Shown piece by piece: positions 73-15,764 of a DNA stretch of 15,764 nucleotides. Made by a program: the position numbers and the translations under genes. Source of the stretch: an uncultured Collinsella sp. Its GTDB lineage: Bacteria > Actinomycetota > Coriobacteriia > Coriobacteriales > Coriobacteriaceae. The DNA lies in assembly GCA_937981515.1 (NCBI GenBank), contig CALJNY010000137.1, positions 1-15,764 of the forward strand. Reading direction: 5' to 3'. Numbering within the stretch: the stretch's first letter is position 1; every line of letters starts with the position of its first letter. The notes under the pieces are model-generated. The model did not search any database and was not told the origin of the DNA. It saw only the letters and a list, made by a program, of their open reading frames with translations.

Positions 73-97
73 GGCAACGCCGATGTTTTGGCAACGA

Positions 98-222
98 CAG
101 CGAGCGGGTCGCATTTGAGACAAGGTGACGTGAAGCGAAAGGGCGCTGACCTTCTGGTCGCGCCCTTGAAGTTGAACGTCAGATTGTCCAAATGCGGCCC
201 GCGCAGCGTCGAGTCGTTACGG
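98..222 (+). repeat. Structured repeat element, left copy (putative RNA fold)
   Basis: This is a three-helix fold. Outer stem: 104-123 pairs with 184-202 (18 bp, one T-G wobble at 109/197, one bulged A at 118). Middle stem: TGACGT (126-131) pairs with ACGTCA (176-181). Apical hairpin: 139-151 pairs with 156-167, loop TTCT, one bulged T at 147. The right-hand copy (15642-15764) keeps the linkers AAGGTGACGTGAA, TTGAACGTCAGATTG and GCAGCGTCGAGTCGTTACG (one T/C change) but has unrelated, still complementary, outer and apical stems. The plus strand is favoured as the RNA strand because the other copy has a C(UUCG)G tetraloop on that strand; the minus strand would instead place it in the 3' UTR of the LCP gene. 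No function is assigned. Confidence 0.65.
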
Positions 223-243
223 CGTTTGGTAAAACGCCGTAAC
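216..243. other. 12-bp perfect hairpin immediately after the LCP gene
   Basis: GTTACGGCGTTT (216-227) pairs perfectly with AAACGCCGTAAC (232-243) around a 4-nt loop. It begins inside the conserved tail of the structured element (CGTTACG) and ends one base beyond the LCP stop codon (TAG, 245-247). There is no T run on either side, so it is not a classical intrinsic terminator. It could protect the 3' end of the murA-LCP transcript or be the terminal helix of the repeat element. The right copy stops at CGTTACG at the window edge, so its counterpart cannot be seen. Confidence 0.6.
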
Positions 244-244
244 T

Positions 245-1477
245 CTAGTAGTTGGCTTCGTAGCCGTTGCCGTCACCGGTGGGCTCTTCGTAGTAGTCCG
301 AATCGCTTGAATCGCTTGAGTCATCGGAATCGTCAGAGCTGACCGATGAGGTTGCGGTACCGTTTGCGTAGTCGTCAGACGTGTTGTTGTTCAGGTCGCC
401 GATCGTAGAGCTGGAACCGTCGGAAAGACCCATGGTGTTGGGACCCTTGGGATCCTTGCCGGCATCGACGCGCTCCATCATTTCCTTGAGCTCGTCCTCG
501 TAGACAAAGACGTAGCTCACTCCGTCGATCATGGTGCTGTCGTCGGCGTACGAGGGCAGGTTGGCCGAGTAGATACCGTCGACATCCATACCGCGCATGG
601 CATTGACCGTAGCCACGATATCCTGAACGCTCATATCGGTTACGAGCATATCGGACAGCGAATTAACCAGGCCAAAGATCTTCGTGGCATCGAAGTTATT
701 GAGAATCTGGTTGGCAAGGGCGCCAAGCACCTGACGCTGATGGCGCATGCGCGTGTAATCGCCGTCGGCATAGGTGTAGCGGCAGCGGGCATAGGTAAGG
801 GCGGTAGCGCCGTCCATATGCTGCTGACCAGCGGTAATCTTAATATCCAGGTGCTCGGGATCGTCGACGTCGTCGGTCGCGTTGATATCGATACCGCCAA
901 CCGAATCAATAAGCGACTGCATGCCGTCAAAGCTGACCTCGGCATAGTGAGAAATCTGCACGCCGCACAGCTCGTTGACCGCCTGGACCATGGCCTCGGC
1001 GCCGCCAACGGTGTGGCAGGCGTTGATCTTCATGGTCTCGCCCTTGTACACGACCTTGGTGTCGCGCGGAACGGAAATGAGCGTCGCCTGCTTTTGCGTG
1101 GGGTCGATGCGTGCCAGGATAATCGAGTCGGCACGATACGTATCCTCGCCCGGACGACCGTCGGTACCAAGAAGCAACACGTAGAACGGATCTTTTGCCT
1201 CATCGGTATCGACCAGAATCTGGCGCAGGTTGTTGGTAATGACATTGGAGTCACCAAGCTTGCCCATGATAGTGGCAAACCACAGACCTGCAGCGGTCGT
1301 GGCGCTCAGCAACACACCGAGCACGGCGATGAGCGCGACACGGCGAACCGTGCGGCCGCGACGGCGCTGACGGGCGCGCTCGGAATAGCGTGCGACATTG
1401 TCGCGACTGTAGATCTTGGCCTGCGCACCAGTCGAGGGTCTTCGGGTGTTATCCGCTAGGGGCTTCTTGTTAAACAT
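245..1477 (-). CDS. LytR-CpsA-Psr (LCP) family cell-wall glycopolymer ligase
   Basis: This is a membrane-anchored LCP protein of 410 residues. The family transfers undecaprenyl-linked glycopolymers (teichoic acid, capsule or similar) onto peptidoglycan outside the cell. A basic cytoplasmic N-terminus rich in Arg (to about residue 47) precedes one membrane helix (about 47-68). The LCP domain starts near residue 97 (YVLLLGTDGRPGED, then DSIILARIDP, ISVPRDT, VGGIDI). The family motif of an Arg-rich helix (YTRMRHQRQVLGAL) is present. The last 60 residues are a low-complexity Ser/Asp/Asn tail ending in Tyr, Glu and Gly. The ATG at 1477 is preferred over an in-frame TTG two codons upstream because AGGT lies 5 nt before it. 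It starts 12 nt after the murA stop, so the two are probably cotranscribed. The substrate cannot be told from sequence. Confidence 0.93.
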   Translation of the reverse strand: MFNKKPLADNTRRPSTGAQAKIYSRDNVARYSERARQRRRGRTVRRVALIAVLGVLLSATTAAGLWFATIMGKLGDSNVITNNLRQILVDTDEAKDPFYVLLLGTDGRPGEDTYRADSIILARIDPTQKQATLISVPRDTKVVYKGETMKINACHTVGGAEAMVQAVNELCGVQISHYAEVSFDGMQSLIDSVGGIDINATDDVDDPEHLDIKITAGQQHMDGATALTYARCRYTYADGDYTRMRHQRQVLGALANQILNNFDATKIFGLVNSLSDMLVTDMSVQDIVATVNAMRGMDVDGIYSANLPSYADDSTMIDGVSYVFVYEDELKEMMERVDAGKDPKGPNTMGLSDGSSSTIGDLNNNTSDDYANGTATSSVSSDDSDDSSDSSDSDYYEEPTGDGNGYEANY

Positions 1478-1489
1478 AGGCAACCTGCA

Positions 1490-13926: not shown

Positions 13927-13947
13927 CCAGTTAATAAATATTACTGG
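13927..13947 (-). other. Inverted repeat at the end of prmC, upstream of the hicAB promoter
   Basis: CCAGT plus AATA (13927-13936, with one extra T) faces TATTACTGG (13939-13947). It overlaps the prmC stop codon (13941-13943) and abuts the hicAB -35 box. It may be a second operator site or a weak 3' end of the prmC transcript; A and T follow it on the minus strand but no clean T run. Confidence 0.35.
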
Positions 13948-15191
13948 CGCTGTTTGGGCTCGGTGACGATGGCTCGAACGATGCGGGGACGATCGGTGAG
14001 GTCGCGGACGATGCGCACGTCCGAGAGACCCGCCTGGCGGCAGAGCTCGGCGGCGGCGTCGAGGGCACCCTCGTAGAGCTCGCAGGCAAACAGGCCGCCG
14101 GCGCGCAGCATGTAAGGCGCCGCATTGAGCAGGCGGCGGAAGATATCGAGGCCGTCGGCACCGCCCTCGAGCGCCAAATCGGGCTCGAAGTCCTTGACCT
14201 CGTGCGGCAACGAGCGCATAACGTCGGTCGGGATGTAGGGCGGGTTGGAAACGAGCACGTCAAAGGTGCCCCACTCTTCGCGGGGAATGGAACTCACCAG
14301 GTTGGTGAGGCTAAAGGCAACCTCATCTGCCGTGAGGCCGAGGGCATCGCGGTTTTTGGTGGCCAGATCGATGGCGCGCGGCTCGATATCGGTGGCGGTG
14401 CAGGTGACGTGGCCGCGGCGCTCCCAGGCAAGGGAGAGCGAGATGCAGCCTGTGCCGCAACCGACCTCGAGAACGCGGGCGATACAGGGCTCGACCGGCG
14501 CGGGCGAGGCGGCATCCTGAGCTGAAGCCGTCTCCTGGTCGGCGCCCTCGATGGCGATGCCGTATTCGTCGAGCTCGGGTTCGGCGGCTTCAGCGGCTTC
14601 GGCTTCTGCTGTCTGCGTGGCGGCTTCCTCGGCCTCGCGGTCGGCCAGTTCTTCGGCATAGGCACGACTGCCCAACACATCGCTACCCAACGCCGCCTCG
14701 TCGGCAGCCGTGAGGTTGGCGGCACGGCGCTCGGCCGTCGCTCGCTCGTCAGCCAATGCGACTTCGGCTTTGCGCGCTTGCTCGACTTCATCGTTCCAGG
14801 GCAGCTCAACGCGCTGACGGGCGGCAGCCTCGGGGCTCAGCACCTCGGCATCCAGATAATTGAGGACTTCCTCGACGAGCATCTCGGTCTCGGGACGCGG
14901 AATGAGCACACCGGGGGCGCATGCGACGTCGATCATGCGGAACTGCGTGCTGCCGGTGATGTACTGCAGCGGCTCGCCCTTGGCGCGGCGGACGACCGCC
15001 GCATGCATGGTCTCGAGCTGCGTCGCATCGAGCGTCTCGTCCATGCGCATATATAAGTCAATGCGTGCCAGACCCGTGGCTGCGCACAGCAGCCATTCGG
15101 CAGAAAGACGGGGGTGTTCCTCGCCGCGCTCGGCCAGGTACTCCTTGGTCCACTCGAGACAACGCTTGATGGTCCAGATCTCGTTTGCCAT
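13941..15191 (-). CDS. prmC: Peptide chain release factor N5-glutamine methyltransferase, with a large acidic insert
   Basis: This methylates the Gln of the GGQ motif in RF1 and RF2, using S-adenosylmethionine. The protein is 416 residues against a usual 275-290. The N-terminal helical domain (1-113) ends in the conserved GVLIPRPETEMLVEEVL (94-110); the methyltransferase domain begins at RVLEVGCGTGCISLSLA (239-255), and the catalytic NPPY is at 316-319. Between them lie about 120 residues (115-237; nucleotides 14481-14849) rich in Ala and Glu, without family homology that I can see. The ATG at 15191 has GGGGAGGA upstream; an extension to 15266 would overlap the promoter. prmC usually follows prfA, which may lie just outside the window. 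Confidence 0.94.
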   Translation of the reverse strand: MANEIWTIKRCLEWTKEYLAERGEEHPRLSAEWLLCAATGLARIDLYMRMDETLDATQLETMHAAVVRRAKGEPLQYITGSTQFRMIDVACAPGVLIPRPETEMLVEEVLNYLDAEVLSPEAAARQRVELPWNDEVEQARKAEVALADERATAERRAANLTAADEAALGSDVLGSRAYAEELADREAEEAATQTAEAEAAEAAEPELDEYGIAIEGADQETASAQDAASPAPVEPCIARVLEVGCGTGCISLSLAWERRGHVTCTATDIEPRAIDLATKNRDALGLTADEVAFSLTNLVSSIPREEWGTFDVLVSNPPYIPTDVMRSLPHEVKDFEPDLALEGGADGLDIFRRLLNAAPYMLRAGGLFACELYEGALDAAAELCRQAGLSDVRIVRDLTDRPRIVRAIVTEPKQRQ

Positions 15192-15209
15192 GGGGTCCTC
15201 CCCTCTTAA

Positions 15210-15223
15210 GCGCCGGGCGGCGC
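15210..15223 (-). other. GC-rich hairpin in the prmC leader
   Basis: GCGCC (15210-15214) pairs perfectly with GGCGC (15219-15223) around a 4-nt loop, a few bases before the prmC ribosome binding site and inside the transcript predicted from the promoter at 15240-15266. It may lower or regulate initiation. Confidence 0.35.
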
Positions 15224-15239
15224 GCGAATGTCGGAGCAG

Positions 15240-15266
15240 ATTGTACGCGAGGCCAGCGCTTGGCAA
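15240..15266 (-). promoter_or_regulatory. Candidate prmC promoter
   Basis: On the minus strand, TTGCCA (15261-15266) and TACAAT (15240-15245) each match the consensus at five of six positions, with a short spacer of 15 bases. The -10 hexamer is identical to that of the atp promoter candidate and, like it, preceded by G. Transcription would begin near 15233, giving a leader of about 40 nt. The short spacer lowers confidence. Confidence 0.45.
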
Positions 15267-15422: not shown

Positions 15423-15441
15423 TTGACGCGCGACGCGTCAA
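15423..15441. other. Perfect 7-bp inverted repeat next to the terminator
   Basis: TTGACGC (15423-15429) pairs with GCGTCAA (15435-15441) around GCGAC. It shares its last two bases with the terminator stem, so the two hairpins compete slightly. It could be a protein-binding site or the base of a two-part transcript end. Confidence 0.35.
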
Positions 15442-15472
15442 AAATCGTCCCGCGACTTCTTGGACGATTTTT
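15440..15472. terminator. Bidirectional intrinsic terminator
   Basis: AAAAATCGTCC (15440-15450) pairs perfectly with GGACGATTTTT (15462-15472), an 11-bp stem with an 11-nt loop. The stem carries an A run at its base on one side and a T run on the other, so it can act in both directions. On the minus strand it would end transcription of whatever gene lies to the right of the window, separating it from prmC. Confidence 0.75.
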
Positions 15473-15583: not shown

Positions 15584-15612
15584 AGTCATTTAAGTACGTC
15601 CCCAATGACTAC
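15584..15612. repeat. REP-like hairpin with ACGTCCCCAA core, right copy
   Basis: AGTCATT (15584-15590) and AATGACT (15604-15610) form a perfect 7-bp stem around a 13-nt loop carrying most of ACGTCCCCAA (15596-15605). On the minus strand the hairpin is led by GTAG (15609-15612), the tetranucleotide that precedes REP hairpins recognised by REP-associated tyrosine transposases; this resemblance is suggestive, not proof. Confidence 0.55.
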
Positions 15613-15641
15613 CTCTAAGGCGCCGCAGGTTGAGCATAAGT

Positions 15642-15764
15642 CAGCGAAAACTCCCCTAAGCGAGCAAGGTGACGTGAAAGAGGAGGGAAGCGTACTTCGG
15701 TACGCGACCGACGATTGAACGTCAGATTGCCGCTTAGGGGCGTTTGCAGCGTCGAGCCGTTACG
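15642..15764 (+). repeat. Structured repeat element, right copy (cut by the window edge)
   Basis: Outer stem: CCCCTAAGCG (15653-15662) with CGCTTAGGGG (15731-15740), continued by GCAA (15664-15667) with TTGC (15727-15730), and a bulged A at 15663, the same place as in the left copy. Middle stem: TGACGT (15670-15675) with ACGTCA (15719-15724). Apical hairpin: GCGTAC (15690-15695) with GTACGC (15700-15705), closed by a C(TTCG)G tetraloop. The tail 15746-15764 repeats 203-221 with one change. The 573-bp stretch 15192-15764 contains no gene that I can support. Confidence 0.65.

Follow-up and report, generated by a model that had tools for sequence, protein, structure and literature searches.

A structure-conserved, dispersed repeat family of Coriobacteriia placed frequently behind stop codons

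The two structured elements at the ends of a 15,764-nucleotide stretch of DNA from an uncultured Collinsella sp. (contig CALJNY010000137.1; hereafter the window, meaning the whole stretch analysed) are copies of one high-copy family. We give about an even chance to the reading that this family consists of dispersed, structure-conserved, mobile-type repeats of Coriobacteriia, which persist mainly behind stop codons and whose fold is read by a putative protein. Mobility or dispersal is favoured by the patchy presence of the family, by filled and empty states of one site, by exchange of subtypes and by remnants, and the best reading of the sequences is that the element, REP/BIME-like in style, is a candidate mobile or dispersing structured repeat.

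The original prediction, made from the letters alone, had described two elements with changed but still paired stems, and this proved true when the sequence was read at both ends and folded. The folding z-score of the + strand is -8.6 for the left copy and -5.6 for the right copy, with 0 of 200 shuffles equally stable; because the elements are near-palindromic, the minus strands also fold well (-6.2 and -4.8, respectively). The predicted contrast between a TTCT loop on the left and a UUCG loop on the right was recovered, as was the bulged A in both outer stems, but the predicted stem lengths of 18 and 14 bp were not: the left helix has 14+5 bp, and in the right helix 4+10 bp enclose a T.C mismatch and are followed by the bulged A and a further 4 bp. 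Three linkers had been described as fixed. They are kept in both copies, but they are mostly paired with each other, the blocks CAAGGTGACGTGAA and TTGAACGTCAGATTG forming CAA/TTG, a GG/GA loop, TGACGT/ACGTCA and a GA/GA loop; moreover, the wider family does not keep even the 'fixed' inner stem TGACGT/ACGTCA, which is replaced by different sequences that still pair, e.g. in the weaker matches of genome G015. Thus, the element is one long hairpin interrupted by 2x2 purine loops rather than the three-helix architecture proposed earlier, and it is followed by a second hairpin, H2, that the prediction had omitted (Table 1).

Table 1. Features of the two copies in the window and the gene abutted by the left copy
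Feature	Position	Strand	Remarks
Left arm, left copy (ACGCCGATGTTTTGGCAACGACAGCGA)	77..103	+	Terminates in the conserved AGCGA foot
Long hairpin, left copy	104..202	+	Sequence reading, folding, covariation
Outer helix, left copy	104-123/184-202	+	14+5 bp around bulged A118
GG/GA loop, left copy	124-125/182-183	+	2x2 purine loop
Inner stem TGACGT/ACGTCA, left copy	126-131/176-181	+	6 bp
GA/GA loop, left copy	132-133/174-175	+	2x2; apical hairpin with TTCT loop above
Conserved linker GCAGCGTCGA, left copy	203..212	+	Partial pairing with the AGCGA foot
H2, second palindromic hairpin (GTTACGGCGTTTGGTAAAACGCCGTAAC)	216..243	undefined	GTTACGGCGTTT-GGTA-AAACGCCGTAAC
LytR-CpsA-Psr domain gene, abutted by left copy	245..1483	-	NCBIfam TIGR00350 over cut-off; orthologues in relatives
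Left arm, right copy (GCGCCGCAGGTTGAGCATAAGTCAGCGA)	15620..15647	+	Sequence reading, information content
Long hairpin, right copy	15648..15745	+	Other outer and apical stems, identical loops, TTCG tetraloop
Linker GCAGCGTCGA and start of H2, right copy	15746..15764	+	GTTACG from 15759; ended by window edge

The left arm of about 25 nt is weakly conserved; across 123 copies, information content exceeds background as far out as about 46-57 nt on the left side of the core. In the left copy, the stop codon of the LytR-CpsA-Psr gene (245-247) is one base off the H2 end. The gene abutted by the right copy lies outside the window, and we infer that it is prfA: in 11/11 close relatives the prfA stop codon is followed by H2 and the element, and the flank beyond the prfA-side element in two of the loci (L325 and L328) resembles that of the window. 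H2 is part of the element, as 22/24 H2-like pattern matches in G015 lie within ~100 nt of an element match, while a reversed-pattern control gave 0; the idea that H2 is a gene's own terminator, unconnected with the element, was rejected on these grounds. No U-tract of an intrinsic terminator follows H2 in the 3' flanks examined, and a simple terminator detector flagged 7/68 element spans. Separately, a palindrome (AAAAATCGTCC...GGACGATTTTT) at 15440-15472, between the right element and a prmC-like gene (13941-15266), is likely a bidirectional U-tract terminator. The left copy lies inside an open + frame (13-342); as one-base length differences between subtypes break this frame, a coding reading was dropped.

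Two forms are distinguished. Type A, to which both window copies belong, is the composite form with hairpin, linker and H2, and type B is a subtype without H2 and foot. In the alignment of 84 sequences, 23/40 pairs have changed on both sides (shuffled mean 16.8; 0/500 as high) and 91.1% of cells pair, compared with 25-44% when the partner is slid by 1-3 columns. In the type B register (20 sequences), both-sided change is present in 24/37 pairs, and 89.7% of cells are paired versus 29-47% slid. The type B set comprises 17 sequences from the same genus, three of which (L191-L193) keep the type A foot, two from genome G030 of another family and a single sequence (L142) from the same-genus genome G021. 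The statistics of both alignments ignore kinship; the stems of the subtypes are nonetheless unrelated in sequence. Type B shares its loops with type A and has an additional tandem U.G/G.U wobble, with UG in 19/20 sequences (UA in 1) and GU in 17/20 (GC in 3), the exceptions being Watson-Crick pairs. The predicted compensatory changes and selection for structure are thereby upheld: the alignments support that pairing is kept under selection while the letters of the stems turn over. A chance palindrome is ruled out by the folding statistics and by compensatory change in both subtypes.

A pattern from two conserved blocks matched at least 120 stretches, and all 120 listed loci are titled Collinsella. 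This agrees with an origin of the window in Collinsella or a very near relative; G001, the nearest genome compared, has 50% of the sampled words of the window. Together with the window copies, these gave 123 extracted copies, which form 29 locus clusters by flank (neighbouring repeats may merge clusters) and contain 84 distinct cores, copies ended by contig edges being excluded. Since the registers of types A and B differ by one base, two models, R1 and R2 (R2 for type B), were built for wider searches, and these found many more copies in Coriobacteriia. R1 gave 32-47 matches in 13/24 same-genus genomes and 0-20 in the other 11, counts that include some reverse-strand rows of one copy; 46 R1 rows (E ≤ 0.01) in G015 correspond to 43 places, and 43 rows in G008 to 41 places. 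At E ≤ 0.001, R1 had matches in 22/39 relatives, including one match in another family. At E ≤ 1e-5, R2 had matches in 118/296 Coriobacteriia genomes and 38/125 genera; 13 candidates per genome were scored, and copy counts per genome are thus lower bounds. The earlier suggestion of a mobile-type structured repeat of Coriobacteriia is supported.

R2 matches are strong in families f1, f2, f5 and f7, and f3 and f6 have one weak match each; in 6 of the 118 genomes (G026, G037, G105, G162, G216 and G297), the best match is weaker than 1e-8. R1 also matched an ordinary GC palindrome (L322; 50 nt, E 3.4e-5 with 46 kb searched), so single weak matches prove little and these weak R2 matches are tentative. 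In 400 kb of the f2 genome G122 there are two places, and in 400 kb of the same-genus genome G167 there are seven (three reverse-strand rows dropped). Both G122 copies and another f2 copy (L403) have the foot and a different H2-like hairpin; hence, the composite form also occurs outside Collinsella. Tandem copies are present at L194, L138 and L406. Finally, G002 and G016, both of the same genus as the window, have zero matches with R1 or R2.

Most copies lie at the end of a gene on the opposite strand. Among 154 copies (some counted twice), a right-hand gene was predicted for 145 and is on the opposite strand in 135 of these; where both neighbours were called (130 copies), 72 copies lie between convergent genes and 49 have both genes running leftward. 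An opposite-strand stop codon is present 30-119 nt past the core in 93/123 copies, and in the other 30 there is none in that range; 75 of the 93 stops are 55-60 nt past the core, i.e. at the H2 end. In G015, 34/43 copies have an opposite-strand stop within -25 to +45 nt of the right end of the element, compared with 13.8% of random intergenic placements in the same stretches (n=9010), while a same-strand stop at the left is present in 5/43, which equals background. This stop-codon rule fails in 9/43 G015 copies. Among 28 R2 rows read together with their surroundings (they come from several genomes, some are orthologous, and L439 is a reverse match), 18 obey it. The f5 loci L405, L407 and L409 obey the rule, and 0/3 f2 copies do (L403, L416 and L422); gene calls came from a simple codon-bias finder trained on Collinsella. 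NCBIfam matches above cut-off were obtained for queA, tyrS, prfA, pyrE and the LCP-family gene; the match of the 'nadE' gene to NAD+ synthase is below cut-off.

Three observations concern individual sites and stop codons. First, the stops of abutted genes at the 120 listed loci (L001-L120) and in the window are TAG 66, TAA 27 and TGA 0, and for all called genes at the same loci the TAG/TAA/TGA counts are 280/242/17; TAG enrichment at abutted genes is possible, the copies being non-independent. Second, the f2 copy in L403 (1501-1734) lies ~50 nt from a tRNA gene, with no protein-gene stop there. Third, around 1501-1601 in L383 and L399, type B copies that probably represent a single orthologous site are flanked by two genes running in one direction (about 24 and 22 nt away), and here the structured strand is the sense strand, contrary to the antisense rule.

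We compared the same site among 11 close genomes for six genes. The element is present in 11/11 at queA, lytR, prfA and pyrE, with one lytR locus (L281), where the sequence and both models show the element without H2, counted as filled; it is present in 5/11 at tyrS and in 2/11 at nadE. Empty loci were verified with both models, and weak signals were found elsewhere only (L360, E 0.012; L300, E 0.098). Five further genomes of the same genus (G002, G006, G009, G014 and G016) are empty at all six genes. At queA, lytR, tyrS, prfA and pyrE, where the proteins are 89.8-100% identical, the filled loci show 3-5 distinct outer-stem 14-mers per gene, some differing by 1-2 letters and most by many. Moreover, queA (L255) and pyrE (L350, L353 and L356) have truncated copies next to full-length ones. 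In a separate observation, a variant left arm, gacagcggattgggtcatatgagcga, occurs in the queA and lytR 3' flanks (L247 and L273) and also in L039, L087, L089 and L103; at the queA and lytR gene ends it leads into nearly identical sequence of >100 bp, which is perhaps another mobile element fused to the hairpin foot.

At tyrS, a U-tract terminator stands within the first 150 nt of 6/6 empty alleles. This terminator hairpin is missing from all four filled alleles readable over 327 nt (the fifth ends at a contig edge), two of which carry a different candidate terminator at a distance of >330 nt from the stop. From this comparison of alleles, the element apparently stands in for the U-tract terminator at tyrS. 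At nadE, neither filled nor empty alleles have a U-tract terminator, so that terminator takeover is not general. The two filled nadE copies lie 18 nt and 4 nt from the stop and have a common outer flank. With gaps of at least 120 nt, U-tract terminators follow 17/66 filled genes versus 63/154 others, the loci being non-independent. Terminator replacement as a general rule was therefore rejected: it is true at tyrS and false at nadE, and the genome-wide difference is modest.

The stop-codon rule and the tyrS alleles suggest that the element may have a role at gene 3' ends. One explanation is that it serves the abutted gene as a functional 3'-end element (a terminator, RNase III processing site or mRNA stabiliser), selected in place and acting in the minus-strand transcript. 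Abutment of stop codons, the reciprocal occurrence of element and terminator at tyrS and the somewhat rarer U-tract terminators after filled genes would fit this explanation; against it stand the lack of a U-tract after H2, the two nadE states and the absence of any copy from G002 and G016. Moreover, candidate terminators lie beyond the element at 4/10 lytR loci scanned (two too short) and 2/5 tyrS loci (one too short), and the strand that is built to fold is the opposite one. We consider this explanation unlikely.

That one strand is kept foldable follows from the mismatches. In 39 chosen subtypes, paired under a score that gives G.T and A.C equal weight, the + strand has 295 purine-purine and 3 pyrimidine-pyrimidine mismatches, and 90 G.T versus 24 A.C, with a G.T excess in 30 subtypes, a deficit in 2 and equality in 7. 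The + strand is the stabler one in 39/39 of these subtypes, with a mean difference of 11.4 kcal/mol; the outer stems alone, in 89 distinct copies, gave 77 against 17. The excess of purine-purine and G.T mismatches indicates that the + strand, which is antisense to the abutted gene, is the strand kept foldable. A fold on one strand, with fixed purine loops on otherwise free stems, looks like a recognition shape. Targeting of one replication strand was considered and rejected: by a weak GC skew in G015, the structured strand coincides with the leading-strand template in 36/43 copies, but the elements track gene orientation, and genes there match that orientation at 72-76% by bases.

The one-strand folding signature would also be expected if the + strand were a non-coding RNA or antisense insulator, folding in transcripts that run toward the 3' end of the abutted gene and blocking or processing them before they enter it in antisense. 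The fixed place just before an opposing gene fits this possibility, and read-through RNA would carry the + strand where the left gene converges. Yet both genes run the other way at the 49 copies noted above, and on the + strand the hairpins are not followed by a U-tract. Similarly, a crude test for a + strand promoter upstream of the element in G015 gave p ≤ 0.05 (shuffle) at 2/26 sites with a leftward left gene and at 0/17 sites with a rightward left gene. We regard this explanation as quite unlikely.

REP and BIME repeats are among the nearest known likenesses. As described in PMC3733652, they are dispersed intergenic hairpins with heterogeneous stems, dimers and clusters, and as GTAG- and CGTC-tagged palindromes they include CGTC families said to be without a dedicated transposase. 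CGTC is also present in the linker of the element, a few bases upstream of H2 (~28 nt; the main hairpin is ~100 nt). The element differs from REP/BIME in being a composite of 100-170 nt with conserved 2x2 purine loops and a tandem wobble, in frequently abutting stop codons in one orientation and in having a structure conserved across families.

An ordinary REP/BIME moved by resident RAYTs (REP-associated tyrosine transposases) would account for dispersal, and RAYT-like genes (282-348 aa frames with a Y1_Tnp domain) are present in these genomes. REPs also favour gene 3' ends. Moreover, RAYT-type repeats adjoin the element in the window and at other loci: a second repeat family (AGTCATTTAAGTACGTCCCCAATGACT; GGAACGTCCCCAAGTGCC) lies at 15584-15610 and 46-67 of the window and often just outside the element. 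As the RAYT-like genes of L319 and L323 have similar repeats (CTCATGTAAGTCTGTCCCCAATGAG type) on their flanks, this second family probably represents these genomes' RAYT-associated REP. By contrast, in 14 Y1_Tnp loci (5 genomes, ~1.5 kb on each side) R2 found no element, and the sole R1 match is the 50-nt palindrome in L322, which reads as an ordinary terminator-like palindrome. With these 14 loci lacking the element and two of them flanked by the other repeat, RAYT was rejected as mobiliser. The long interrupted stem of the element also contrasts with the 20-40 bp given for REPs in PMC3733652, and we consider movement by resident RAYTs improbable.

It is highly improbable that the element is an attC-like recombination site, whose gene-complementary folded strand starting at the stop codon would be used by a tyrosine recombinase: the geometry is that described in the text of PMC3053210 (a site of 57-141 bp downstream of a gene, an imperfect palindrome whose bottom, antisense strand folds and whose structure is kept over sequence), but abutted housekeeping genes (tyrS and nadE) have close orthologues both filled and empty, so that gene and site do not move as an attC-type cassette, no RYYYAAC/GTTRRRY frame was recognised by eye, and the element has purine-purine loops versus the single extrahelical bases of attC.

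BOX, ERIC and RUP are, like the element, modular structured intergenic repeats with mosaic modules, in other phyla; to our knowledge, no stop-codon rule or comparable covariation has been reported for them.

It had also been proposed that the element might belong to a motif already described for Collinsella and that Rfam could name it. Rfam cmscan at gathering gave zero matches to either element in the window and zero matches in 20 further loci except for tRNAs in L403; no other family, including Collinsella-1 (RF01700), was recovered. Below gathering, the best matches of the left element are STnc380 (E 0.2) and PsiU2-55 (E 0.78), with none for the right element, and another such search gave mir-2237 (E 0.057), far below gathering. 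The Collinsella-1 motif, named in the text of PMC2864571, is likewise a candidate structured element of Collinsella and the human gut; it differs in that these scans gave no match to it. Literature on Collinsella or Coriobacteria repeats, structured RNAs and terminators (including passages of PMC8040213, PMC2864571, PMC3733652 and PMC6006769) gave no description of the element; an unnamed prior listing is possible, for instance among the 3161 candidates reported in PMC8040213. The main text of PMC3733652 contains none of the terms collinsella, eggerthella, slackia, atopobium or actinobacteri.

We therefore return to the reading of a dispersed, mobile-type repeat, to which we gave about an even chance. 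Copies would spread as mobile DNA or via conversion between copies. The folded single strand, with purine loops and tandem wobbles on free stems, would be the shape read by a putative protein. Copies would persist mainly directly behind stop codons, where they may be harmless, and could there assume 3'-end duties, e.g. those of the lost tyrS terminator. Several observations weigh against this reading. No mobiliser was found, and the 14 Y1-transposase loci hold no element. By reading, no target-site duplication, which together with terminal inverted repeats marks a MITE (non-autonomous IS), is visible at nadE (L373) or tyrS, and the comparison of alleles at these genes indicates that segments were replaced, not simply inserted. 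It would also be odd for a simple insertion target to lie exactly against stop codons, and neither the nine G015 copies outside the rule nor the three f2 copies fit. Finally, the polymorphism could arise through homologous exchange between strains, without transposition.

A more specific proposal, which we put forward tentatively and think rather unlikely, is that the tandem U.G/G.U wobble and the GA/GG and GA/GA modules form a class-wide, undescribed recognition shape. A putative dedicated Coriobacteriia protein would read this shape and place or exchange elements exactly behind housekeeping stop codons, such that gene 3' ends would be swapped between strains, sometimes replacing intrinsic terminators. 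If the reading of a dispersed, mobile-type repeat is right, some 30-45 gene ends per genome of the Collinsella aerofaciens group would carry one exchangeable structured module, and the 3' ends of core genes would be a fast-changing part of these gut bacteria. The family would then be a clean, covariation-supported entry for filing, could lead to a new protein that recognises hairpins and would allow study of the ways in which repeats end up exactly at stop codons.
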